64,000 nucleotides of DNA from contig JAPHSS010000034.1 of the NCBI GenBank assembly GCA_026195255.1, positions 1 to 64,000 of the forward strand, given 5' to 3'. How positions within the stretch are numbered: position 1 is the stretch's first letter; each line of letters starts with the position of its first letter. The notes below the pieces were generated by a model. The model ran no database searches. It was not told the DNA's origin and saw nothing but the letters and a program-made list of their open reading frames with translations. The stretch comes from Gammaproteobacteria bacterium (GTDB lineage Bacteria; Pseudomonadota; Gammaproteobacteria; SZUA-229). This document shows, in pieces, positions 46,779 through 52,715 of this stretch. The translations under genes were made by a program, and so were the position numbers.

Positions 46779-47288
46779 TCAACTCCCAAATTTATCTTCA
46801 TCTTCGTCTTTATTTTCAGGACAAACCCACGAAGTTAACTTGTTTATTTCATTTTTTCTTAGCTTGCTGAGTACAGTGTTATCAATTACCATTTGCCACC
46901 GCCCATCTAGCTGATAGGGTTCTTTATTAATAATCAGGTCAAAGTCTATACTTGTTATCCATACTTTCTGTTGAATACTTAATTTATCTTTGCTGAACCC
47001 GGTGATAAATGCAGATGGTAAAACTGTGCTATTACCTCTACTACTGCTGGAATTTGCTTTGTCGCTAATGATTTGTGTTTTACTGTATGAGCAATCTTTA
47101 TAAATAATGCTGCTGTCTGAGTTTATAGCCAGAAGAGTTGCTTTTAAGTCGTATCCTTTGAGTCTTGATTCATTATAGTAATGCCAGACGCCAAAATATT
47201 CTGATTTAGAGCTGGGGACTTTTATTGGTTTTCTGTCTTCACAAGCAGTCAAAAATATTATTGAAATAAACAACGGGTATTTAAACAT
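46779..47288 (-). CDS. Unknown lipoprotein
   Basis: A 169-aa protein with a signal peptide ending in a lipobox (FLTACED, Cys16). The mature part contains YFGVWHYYNESRLKGYDLKATLLAINSD and LDGRWQMVIDNTVLSKL, which looks like a lipocalin-like or META-type beta domain, but no family is certain. The stop codon lies directly in frame before the uracil-DNA glycosylase frame. The lipoprotein gene may have been inserted there. Confidence 0.65.
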   Translation of the reverse strand: MFKYPLFISIIFLTACEDRKPIKVPSSKSEYFGVWHYYNESRLKGYDLKATLLAINSDSSIIYKDCSYSKTQIISDKANSSSSRGNSTVLPSAFITGFSKDKLSIQQKVWITSIDFDLIINKEPYQLDGRWQMVIDNTVLSKLRKNEINKLTSWVCPENKDEDEDKFGS

Positions 47289-47343: not shown

Positions 47344-47784
47344 TTAAGTGACTGGCCATATTGGTAAATCTTTTGACTTATCATATTCAGGAAAGACAGT
47401 TATATTTTCAATAAGATCATTGACTACCCAAAATGAAATTTCTTTCTCAGGGTATACATAGTCTTTTACGCTTTCACTTAAATCTTCATCAAGAATAATA
47501 GAAGAGTGTTTGTCAATAATAGAGTTAATATTTTTACCAACGAGTTTTAAACCTTCTAACTCTGCTTGCCTGGATGTTGTGTTTATTGTGGATAGTCGAT
47601 AATTGTTATCAGAATCGAAATTGAGTGTTAAACCTGAATCGAGATATAACCATGATTCAGATATAGTTCCATCCGGCCACTCATCACTGTTTGTAGATTC
47701 AGGTTGCCCAAGCAGCTCAAAAATACTCTGCTTTGAACTACCAAGTATAATATTATCAATTCCAATCAGTGGTTTTAATATCAT
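47344..47784 (-). CDS. Unknown protein, relative of 45024-45476
   Basis: A 146-aa protein, homologous in its N-terminal half to the 150-aa protein at 45024. ATG 47784 is preferred because the alignment with the relative starts there (MILKPLIGIDNIILG) and because it begins 11 bases after the stop of the upstream gene; an ATG at 47826 would overlap that gene. Function unknown; an immunity-like role is one possibility. Confidence 0.6.
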   Translation of the reverse strand: MILKPLIGIDNIILGSSKQSIFELLGQPESTNSDEWPDGTISESWLYLDSGLTLNFDSDNNYRLSTINTTSRQAELEGLKLVGKNINSIIDKHSSIILDEDLSESVKDYVYPEKEISFWVVNDLIENITVFPEYDKSKDLPIWPVT

Positions 47785-47794
47785 GAAAATAAAA

Positions 47795-48322
47795 TTATTT
47801 AGATTCACTGATGAATTTAATTTCATCAATAAATTTTATAAAGTCTCTCGCTATATCATTACTATGTGACGACTCATTTGAAATTAAATCATATACCGTA
47901 TTTATTCGGTTAAAAATTACAGTTAACTGTTTTTGAATCTCCAGGTTTTGAGCCTCGGTGACTTTGGGTAGAGTATTAATTTCAAACGGATATTCTGTTT
48001 GCCCCGTATTCTGCATATGATGTAAAAAATCTATGCCATTAATGACATTAATTCCTGTGCCCTTAAATATAAAGGTTTCTCTTAGTGGTTGAATTAATGT
48101 GTTTATCTTGAGTTCAGGGGCGGTGCGATATAAGGCTGTTTCAATATCCAGTCCAATAACGATACCAAAATTGTGCCCTTGTTGTATTCTATTTATCATG
48201 CTCGTGGCAGCTTTAACCTGAGCATTTATCATGGAAACATCTGATGAGGGCTGTTGTGTCTGTTCTTCCTTATCTTTAATAAAGCCGGAAGCCTTACGTA
48301 GAGTATTCTTGAAATTTATCAT
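47795..48322 (-). CDS. Unknown soluble protein
   Basis: A 175-aa protein without signal or membrane segment. The central part has GIVIGLDIETALYRTAPELKINTLIQPLRETFIFKGTGINV, the C-terminus is helical. It precedes the 146-aa unknown protein by 11 bases, so the two are probably an operon and might act together. Not recognised. Confidence 0.55.
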   Translation of the reverse strand: MINFKNTLRKASGFIKDKEEQTQQPSSDVSMINAQVKAATSMINRIQQGHNFGIVIGLDIETALYRTAPELKINTLIQPLRETFIFKGTGINVINGIDFLHHMQNTGQTEYPFEINTLPKVTEAQNLEIQKQLTVIFNRINTVYDLISNESSHSNDIARDFIKFIDEIKFISESK

Positions 48323-48847: not shown

Positions 48848-49498
48848 TCATATTAGAAGGGGAACAAAAAATCGGCTGGAAAATTCTACAGCATCAGTTA
48901 ATGAGAAAATCTCTCTACCATTCACATCATCAGAAAGCCACTTTTTTGCTACTTCTGTATCTTTGAGAAATATCATGTCCATACATAAACTATCGGCACA
49001 ACTCGCACCTGAATCGGCCGCGCCCCAGATAATGCCAAAATGAAGGTTAAGTACTTCCTCTGGGTTTTGAATTGTCTCTCCTGACATCTGTATATGTACA
49101 GGTTCGCCCGTTACTCTGCATTGTGAATTGATTTCTGTGGTTTCGTCAAACATGGGTGCCACCGCTAATGCATCAAGCGCACACATGGCATGAACTTTAA
49201 AGCCGTTAACGTAAACAATATGTTCGCGCTCACTCATGGTAAAAGGGTAGGCGCCAGTAGGTTCTGCGTTTTCGGAGAAGGTGACCATGTCATTTTCACT
49301 CAGCACTCTCATCGCTTGCGGAACATTGTCGACCCAGTTCGCCATTTCATCTTTATTAAGAATACGTCCGTAAGTCACAAATGAGCGTAACATCTGCTGG
49401 TGTAGTTCCTTATGCTGTGCACTGCACTTATCCTGGCGCTCTTTTAGAGGTAGAATCATATTTAAGCGTTTTAATGCAACTTCGAGTTTGTTATTCAT
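48848..49498 (-). CDS. merB: Organomercurial lyase (alkylmercury lyase)
   Basis: Cleaves the carbon-mercury bond of organomercurials by protonolysis, releasing Hg2+. The 216-aa length fits MerB (about 212). The catalytic residues are visible: Cys and Asp in VHAMCALDALAVAPMF (equivalents of Cys96 and Asp99) and the second Cys in GASCADSLCMDMIFL (equivalent of Cys159). An N-terminal winged-helix part precedes. No merA, merR, merT or merP is in the window, so the Hg2+ product would not be reduced by a neighbour. Confidence 0.85.
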   Translation of the reverse strand: MNNKLEVALKRLNMILPLKERQDKCSAQHKELHQQMLRSFVTYGRILNKDEMANWVDNVPQAMRVLSENDMVTFSENAEPTGAYPFTMSEREHIVYVNGFKVHAMCALDALAVAPMFDETTEINSQCRVTGEPVHIQMSGETIQNPEEVLNLHFGIIWGAADSGASCADSLCMDMIFLKDTEVAKKWLSDDVNGREIFSLTDAVEFSSRFFVPLLI

Positions 49499-50111: not shown

Positions 50112-52715
50112 TTAAATCAAGCTGTTGGGGTTTTTATTTAATTGGCACTCAACGTTACGCTTATAGTTTAAATAATCAAATAATCGTAGTGACCTATCAT
50201 CTTTATCTGAAATAACTGGCGGTTCAATTTTAATATCTGAAATATATACTGGTATATCATCGCCTGAGGGAATGCTCCTCGAGATAAAGTTATTTATGTC
50301 TGAATAAATATCAGATCCAGGGCCGGTAGATTTAAACTGTCTGTTTTTACATTCAAATATTATCTCGGTATTATCATTACATTTGTTAATTTTTAAATTA
50401 AGTGAATAGCAGGTTTCAGAATCAGGTAACTGATTGCCATTCAGTTGTACGTGCTCGTAATTAAAGCTATCCAGTTTTAGCAGCTGGTTAACTTCTACTT
50501 TTTTCTGGCTGGATAAGTGGTTCAGTGTATTAGTTATAAACTTCATCCAGTTATTGATATAACTTTGCCGTTTGAAATGATCTTGGCTATAAGTAAATAA
50601 ACTGCCCATTTCATCGAATACAAACATTTTTACCTGCTTTCCTTCAATTAGATAAAATAACTGTATTACATTGTCTCTGTTTTTATTAAGAAGATATTCG
50701 AGCATTGGTGATTGATCAAATACATCTATAAAAACGGTTTTAGTGAATTCTTCTAGTGGTAACTCAAGATGTTTTAATAAATTAGTCTGCATATTAAATG
50801 AATGTGTGTCTACGATACCATTTTTTGAATGTGAGATATAATATGTATTATCTTTTTTGAAAATGATACGGCTGTTTAAACTTTCATGTTTGCCTAATAT
50901 TTTATCCGTTATTTTAATTAAATCCAGGATGTCAGTGCCGACTTTTTGTGATTCGCCGGGTTTTACGCCCATAACTCTTATGTCGGGTGTAATGACGTTT
51001 TCTGAATCAATAGAAGAACAGTTCCAGCCATGAACACAAGCAATAAAATCTTCATAGTTGTTGTATTGTGATACATGAAACTCACCAGTGTTAAAGATGT
51101 TTAACTGACAAATTAAGGGGTTTCTGGTGTCAGCCTGGCTATTAACAAATATAAGTGATTTAACTGGATGCGCTGTAGATGAGAATGCATTTAAATCTGA
51201 AATATCGAAATAACTAATTTTTGTATTATCTCTTATAAAAGTTATGATATTGAGCATATCAATGGCGGTGGCGTTGTGCGTTGGAGAGTTGGTTGCTATT
51301 CTTGTGTTGGTGTCTATTATTCTGTTGATATAAGCCCAGGATAACAGTTCAATCATGTTTTTAGATGTTTTTATTAGTTCAGAGCCTTCATCAGGTGAGC
51401 TATATAAATGCCATACAGCATTCTCCACTTTAATCATCACCTTTTCCTGATAGATTAATGCCTTGTTTATTTCAGGCATGATGTGGAAGTTATTGTAACT
51501 TCGCCTCAGGCGTAATAATAAGCTTTCTGAGATAAAGTCTAGTTCGTTTATTTCTTTAAATATATACTCATCTTTATTCTCAATTACCTTTTGGATAGTA
51601 ATAAACAAGTTTTCAGTTAGTTTGTATATATTGTTAATAAATTTTATATATTGAACAATGTTAATACATTTGCTTTTTTCTTCTGGTTTATCAGCAAGGG
51701 GTTTATCAGAAAAATAATCAAATACTGTTTTAACATTATAGGTTTTAGATTGAGAAGATAGCATTTCAAGAAATGATTTATTAATTATCAATCTATCTTC
51801 AATATTCATTGAGCCAATAATGATTTTAATATAATCAGCATAAAGTTTCCTGATGTCGCTGTTGCTGGATTCAAAATAACCTGTTTGCACTAATGATCTT
51901 AAATGATATGAAAATGTTCTGTATTCATTCTTTCTGTTAACTTGATCCAGGATTAATAACAGTTCTAACCAGGTTGAAATTGGATTTTTAGATACGCCCA
52001 ATAAATGCCAGATCACAGTTGAGTAATAATCTCTTAACCTTAATCTGTTACCGCTGTCGATATGTAAGTAGTTTTCGTTATTTACAATTTTTTCATCGGT
52101 GTCTTCATCGGAGTTGAGCCACCAGTCTGGTGTTTTTCCACAAATTATAATAGATTCAGCATAAAACTCGTCAATTAAAAATTTTTTATCTATATGGTAA
52201 CTTCGATCGAAGTATTGATAAAATTGGCTGTCTAGATTATCTACAGAAGTTAAGAACAAGGTAATAGTTATTCTTTTCTTCTTAAGAAGGTTTTCTATAT
52301 ATATTGCCTTTCTGTTTAACAGGTTTATTTTGTCGTAATTTAGATTACTATCAAATACAATCCACAGGAGTCTTTCATTGTTTTTAAAACATTCTTGCAA
52401 ATATATGCCTTCTATTATGCATGTAATATTTTTGTCTTCCTCACTTACAGCATATTTTTTATCGATACAGTTTAGACTTTTATTTACTTCCTCATCAGAA
52501 ATATCTAGATTTTTGATTCCACAGGGCATATCGGGATTGTTACATCCAGAGATGAAATAGGGATTAATATGGAATAATACTGGTATCGCATCGATGAATA
52601 ACGCCTGTTCCTGATTAAGCGTGTTTTTATACGCGCTCAACCTGTATTCATTATACTTCTTGAATTTGTCTAGTCGGTCCCTGGCTCTGTTGGTAACACT
52701 CATCGGACTACTCAT
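50112..52715 (-). CDS. Class I adenylate cyclase-like protein lacking the catalytic motif
   Basis: An 867-aa protein that follows E. coli-type CyaA (848 aa) in plan and length. Matches include FHINPYFISGCNNPDMPCGI (about 48-67), LLNRKAIYIENLL (132-144), LIDEFYAESIIICGK (180-194), the W-L-E-L-L-L stretch after DYYSTVIWHLLGVSKNP, and NVIQLFYLIEG...FVFDEMGSLF in the C-terminal half. The catalytic block of the family (GS-x(n)-SDxDxW, nucleotidyltransferase fold) is replaced at residues 103-120 by GIYLQECFKNNERLLWIV: it is shortened and has neither the Gly-Ser pair nor the two aspartates. It is therefore predicted not to make cAMP. The frame is fully open over 2.6 kb, so the protein seems maintained. 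It could be a regulator or cAMP-binding pseudoenzyme. Confidence 0.72.
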   Translation of the reverse strand: MSSPMSVTNRARDRLDKFKKYNEYRLSAYKNTLNQEQALFIDAIPVLFHINPYFISGCNNPDMPCGIKNLDISDEEVNKSLNCIDKKYAVSEEDKNITCIIEGIYLQECFKNNERLLWIVFDSNLNYDKINLLNRKAIYIENLLKKKRITITLFLTSVDNLDSQFYQYFDRSYHIDKKFLIDEFYAESIIICGKTPDWWLNSDEDTDEKIVNNENYLHIDSGNRLRLRDYYSTVIWHLLGVSKNPISTWLELLLILDQVNRKNEYRTFSYHLRSLVQTGYFESSNSDIRKLYADYIKIIIGSMNIEDRLIINKSFLEMLSSQSKTYNVKTVFDYFSDKPLADKPEEKSKCINIVQYIKFINNIYKLTENLFITIQKVIENKDEYIFKEINELDFISESLLLRLRRSYNNFHIMPEINKALIYQEKVMIKVENAVWHLYSSPDEGSELIKTSKNMIELLSWAYINRIIDTNTRIATNSPTHNATAIDMLNIITFIRDNTKISYFDISDLNAFSSTAHPVKSLIFVNSQADTRNPLICQLNIFNTGEFHVSQYNNYEDFIACVHGWNCSSIDSENVITPDIRVMGVKPGESQKVGTDILDLIKITDKILGKHESLNSRIIFKKDNTYYISHSKNGIVDTHSFNMQTNLLKHLELPLEEFTKTVFIDVFDQSPMLEYLLNKNRDNVIQLFYLIEGKQVKMFVFDEMGSLFTYSQDHFKRQSYINNWMKFITNTLNHLSSQKKVEVNQLLKLDSFNYEHVQLNGNQLPDSETCYSLNLKINKCNDNTEIIFECKNRQFKSTGPGSDIYSDINNFISRSIPSGDDIPVYISDIKIEPPVISDKDDRSLRLFDYLNYKRNVECQLNKNPNSLI

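Follow-up and report, generated by a model that had tools for sequence, protein, structure and literature searches.

The adenylate cyclase CyaA of E. coli is a textbook example in which the large C-terminal half carries the traditional label of regulatory, with no clear explanation in structural terms, and the known regulator of the enzyme, the PTS protein EIIA-Glc, is a partner of this C-terminal region. Gammaproteobacterial CyaA enzymes (PF12633 plus PF01295) combine a nucleotidyltransferase (NTase)-type N-terminal domain, a helical middle and the C-terminal regulatory half. The same plan is found in the protein analysed here, pseudo-CyaA beta (hereafter beta), encoded in a stretch of 64,000 nucleotides (the window) from a gammaproteobacterial contig (JAPHSS010000034.1). 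On the contrary, beta departs from CyaA in that the GSx9SDxDxW loop is deleted, the ES(S/A)GSAQ motif is lost, and its scores lie far under the equivalog cut-offs.

Beta, a full-length class I adenylate cyclase homologue devoid of catalytic residues as assigned from profiles and alignments, is encoded on the minus strand (50112..52715) by an ATG-initiated frame of 867 aa that the ORF check of the window found uninterrupted. The other five frames over the gene hold 41-115 stops, and a random open frame was rejected, the probability of 867 stop-free codons being ~1e-31 at this base composition. The NTase-like Adenyl_cycl_N domain (residues ~16-199; 52119..52670, minus strand; profile and structural model) passes the PF12633 cut-off of 27 with 74.4 bits (E 1.6e-20, residues 16-199), whereas the match to PF01295, at 25.9 bits, remains under its 27-bit cut-off. 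The C-terminal regulatory half (residues 415-867; 50112..51473, minus strand) was delimited by profiles, alignment and the model of alpha, the genome's other class I homologue, of which it matches the best-conserved region. Over this half runs the best of the matches to six NCBIfam class I adenylate cyclase models (E 2.7e-62), although the best score, 211.4 bits, fails the equivalog cut-off of 1300, the same model giving 1044 bits for a motif-bearing enzyme of uncultured Gammaproteobacteria. The full-length homology proposed in the preliminary description is thus upheld by PF12633 and the six NCBIfam models, even though the profile check fell short for PF01295. Elsewhere in the window, a MerB-like organomercurial lyase family protein (48848-49498, minus strand; PF03243 85.5 bits, well below the NCBIfam MerB cut-offs) shows a CALD motif resembling the catalytic Cys...Asp of MerB, and two small overlapping genes lacking significant Pfam matches (47344-48322, minus strand) are followed by a lipoprotein-like gene (46779-47288).

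Alignment with canonical enzymes places the canonical MGSSGTIAYNEKSDFDIW opposite YLQECF------KNNERLLW in beta, so that the catalytic loop is represented by a remnant (residues 103-120, GIYLQECFKNNERLLWIV; 52356..52409, minus strand) in which a six-residue deletion within GS-x9-SDxDxW accompanies the loss of Gly-Ser and both Asp residues, Trp118 being the sole survivor. This accounts for the shortened active-site segment noticed initially, and beta fails the GSx9SDxDx[WYF] catalytic-loop test. The second conserved motif, located downstream of the loop, is also missing. Relocation of the catalytic residues within the protein was rejected, since the NTase signature G[GS]x5-14[DE]x[DE], present at the expected place in 12/12 canonical rows, has no match across the whole of beta. 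The best explanation for these features is that beta is a non-catalytic homologue of class I adenylate cyclases.

The presence of a canonical cyaA at another place in the genome, a possibility raised by the preliminary description, was likewise rejected. The genome (3.56 Mb, 99.9% complete) holds a single other class I homologue, alpha (contig C17, 899 aa), in which the same catalytic residues are absent from both the loop and the second motif; unlike beta, it passes PF01295 at ~68-70 bits. A survey of 54 genomes, covering one gammaproteobacterial order that comprises a single family, revealed class I homologues in ten of them, belonging to five genera, with every class I N-terminus seen lacking the motif of the metal- and ATP-binding loop and no motif-bearing class I enzyme found among the 54. 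The locus of alpha, which is conserved in these ten genomes, is fixed, consisting of prfC, DUF, MFS, an optional double-receiver (REC-REC) gene and alpha, which faces a 184-aa gene followed by valS, two of the contigs being too short to display it whole. Pairwise NG86 dN/dS values for alpha, N-terminal domain included, are ~0.1-0.2, rough figures given that dS exceeds 1, and conservation is high in the AGKYPxWW block that lies downstream of the loop. By these estimates, purifying selection acts on alpha in several genera; the dN/dS figures concern alpha only, beta being known from one complete copy. Public records of the same proteins all come from metagenome-assembled bacteria, nearly all of them labelled Gammaproteobacteria and including the window's genus, SZUA-229, in which a frenulate tubeworm symbiont has been placed (PMC12045306).

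Beta and alpha are homologous over their full length, with about 20-23% identity in local alignments, and carry the identical six-residue deletion. Beta-type copies occur in 2/54 genomes of the order, the sole other one found being an open frame of 749 codons in another genus (G026:C83) that ends at the contig edge, its motif region thereby missing. Trees separate the motif-less proteins of the order from all canonical ones (support 100/100) and pair beta with the G026:C83 copy (98/96 and 97/90), a pairing that is provisional because both are long branches, that of beta being the longest in the tree (2.1-2.5). The four remaining genomes of the genus, of which one is just 74% complete, contain no beta, and in the same-genus genome G051 the serine dehydratase gene of its neighbourhood is present with different neighbours and no trace of beta. 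Its patchy distribution, the neighbourhood not conserved in G051, and a GC content of 31.6%, below that of the window, would be compatible with acquisition by horizontal transfer instead of duplication within the order. Nonetheless, this origin seems rather unlikely, considering that beta shares the deletion of alpha and groups in the tree with the motif-less proteins and with no canonical enzyme. As judged from tree and distribution, beta is a fast-evolving, patchily distributed paralogue of alpha, and it appears to be the paralogue of a dead enzyme and not a dead copy alongside a live one. Motif loss is common to the whole lineage and therefore appears older than beta; catalytic activity would have been lost once, in the ancestor of the clade.

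The long branch, the absence from the remaining genomes of the genus and the low GC might equally announce a dying, dispensable duplicate of alpha that has so far escaped disruption while alpha does the job of the family, and a precedent exists in another family, where the class I homologue of G414 is decaying and contains stops. We regard this fate as unlikely, since the 867 open codons would hardly persist by chance, homology spans the entire protein at an identity of only 21%, and the G026 copy is also open, though cut by the contig end. The maintained pseudoenzyme put forward in the preliminary description therefore holds to different degrees for the two proteins. It is well supported for the lineage, where alpha shows purifying selection across several genera, and probable for beta, for which the intact frame, the full-length homology and one open, contig-truncated relative speak; correspondingly, the dN/dS comparison it proposed yielded values for alpha and found a single complete copy of beta.

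Comparison of identities along the proteins, with alpha values obtained from nine complete sequences, indicates where constraint lies. In the motif region, which is the best-conserved part of three related canonical enzymes, identity amounts to 0.71 in these, 0.54 in all six canonical enzymes and 0.40 in alpha, while the corresponding values for the C-terminal half are 0.485, 0.27 and 0.50. The focus of constraint in alpha is no longer the catalytic loop but the C-terminal regulatory half. Since most of it falls on this half and not on the nucleotide site, a protein-interaction or regulatory role is favoured over nucleotide binding. The allosteric or nucleotide-binding regulator of the preliminary description is a conjecture.

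Structure prediction for beta (pLDDT 75.5; strands 101-108, 115-121 and 152-157) produced a model whose residues ~21-383 match AadA/ANT(9) nucleotidyltransferases over 200-220 residues with Z 8.5-9.4. An NTase-type core followed by a helical domain is therefore still predicted, and the structural comparison suggested at the outset shows that the model retains this fold, of AadA type. The predicted resemblance to the ATP-binding AadA (Z 9.4), together with the conserved AGKYPxWW block, would suit neofunctionalisation of alpha and beta, either towards new catalysis or with nucleotide binding kept in the NTase cleft. Such a reading appears decidedly improbable, as the loop lacks the conserved acidic pair, conservation in the motif region now falls short of that in the C-terminal half, and two deletions affect the loops that would bear the site. 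The C-terminal half of alpha was modelled well (pLDDT 85, pTM 0.82), with no convincing solved structural relative, the partial RNase-H/actin-like matches all having Z <6 among those listed, too weak to assign a fold; the sequence search for solved relatives returned one insignificant chance match (E 0.046). In this model (L025, residues 412-899), the half looks to be built from repeats of units formed by three strands plus a helix, an architecture that the regulatory domains of class I cyclases may share generally.

Directly upstream of alpha, 6/10 alpha genomes encode a protein made of two receiver domains that lacks an output domain (L014:8575-9315 on G000:C17, L017, L018, L021, L022 and L023), its frame overlapping that of alpha by 11 bases in the window genome. 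The acceptor position of the first receiver is Asn in the window genome and Asp in its relatives. The gene is missing from 4/10 alpha genomes and does not stand beside beta; when sought in the 44 genomes of the order without alpha it was found in none (0/44), so that it occurs in 6/54 genomes, always alpha carriers and always adjoining alpha, a count inflated by the relatedness of the genomes. Adjacency and exclusive co-occurrence suggest a joint function, and the double-receiver protein is probably a working partner of alpha.

The cAMP receptor side of the pathway is preserved, with a CRP orthologue in the window genome (323.8 bits vs an equivalog cut-off of 266) and CRP in 41/54 genomes of the order. 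The window genome also encodes four class III cyclase domains, at least two of which (L062 and L064) prove on inspection to have the full set of metal, purine and transition-state residues. Besides L062 and L064, two class III cyclase-like proteins were observed at L065:1495-2394 and L063:739-2019 (G000), one with an FHA-like C-terminal stretch by eye and the other with membrane segments. EIIA-Glc was looked for in the window genome and not detected, the known CyaA regulatory input being therefore probably absent. Retention of CRP and of class III cyclases whose catalytic residues are intact indicates that cAMP signalling was probably handed over, and the simplest reading of these gene contents would be that class III cyclases replaced class I in cAMP synthesis, freeing CyaA.

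Altogether, we consider it likely that the window gene encodes a non-catalytic class I homologue, of a family in which alpha is selected and beta evolves faster, acting as a protein-interaction or signal-relay regulator. Class III cyclases would now make cAMP, the C-terminal regulatory half would be the part through which the pseudo-cyclases serve as a protein-interaction or signal-relay module, and beta would probably perform a divergent version of the job of alpha. A more specific proposal, in which the double receiver would attach to the C-terminal half of alpha and both, together with the divergent second copy beta, would tune class III cyclases or CRP under phosphorylation control, is speculative and quite improbable as it stands; if true, a former second-messenger enzyme would now regulate the enzymes that replaced it.

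More widely, a class I homologue was present in 109/369 gammaproteobacterial genomes sampled, and GSx9SDxDx[WYF] is kept at 101/104 class I N-terminal loci outside the order of the window. The three exceptions are G141 (L154/L175), G212 (L161/L176) and G414 (L174/L177), indicating that inactivation has happened beyond the window lineage too. The G141 homologue is intact (899 aa) and occupies the usual argH-PAS-cyaA locus, hence the resident cyaA itself has been inactivated there. That of G212 is also intact (873 aa), and the decayed, stop-containing one of G414 shares with it both family and purH/argC locus. Like the window lineage, G141 and G212 have full-length proteins without the motif, each the sole class I homologue found in its genome; unlike the window proteins, they fall outside the window lineage on the tree. 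The tree joins them to each other, although both are long branches from different families, and they may reflect one or two further inactivation events.

Because motif-less copies arose outside the lineage as well, class I adenylate cyclase annotations need a check of the catalytic loop; nor can a class I cyclase be deduced, in this order, from the presence of a CRP gene. A lineage in which the catalytic loop is gone and selection maintains the remainder would allow the non-catalytic role of the family to be studied apart from cAMP synthesis. No published class I pseudo-cyclases were found in the open-access literature searched, most subscription papers lying outside that search. A parallel is nevertheless offered by human OASL, a pseudo-nucleotidyltransferase that acts by binding and whose role has been experimentally shown (PMC4446440). 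Despite belonging to another family and another domain of life, OASL resembles pseudo-CyaA in being an NTase-type protein without catalytic activity, and its role through binding is the one that we would propose for pseudo-CyaA.
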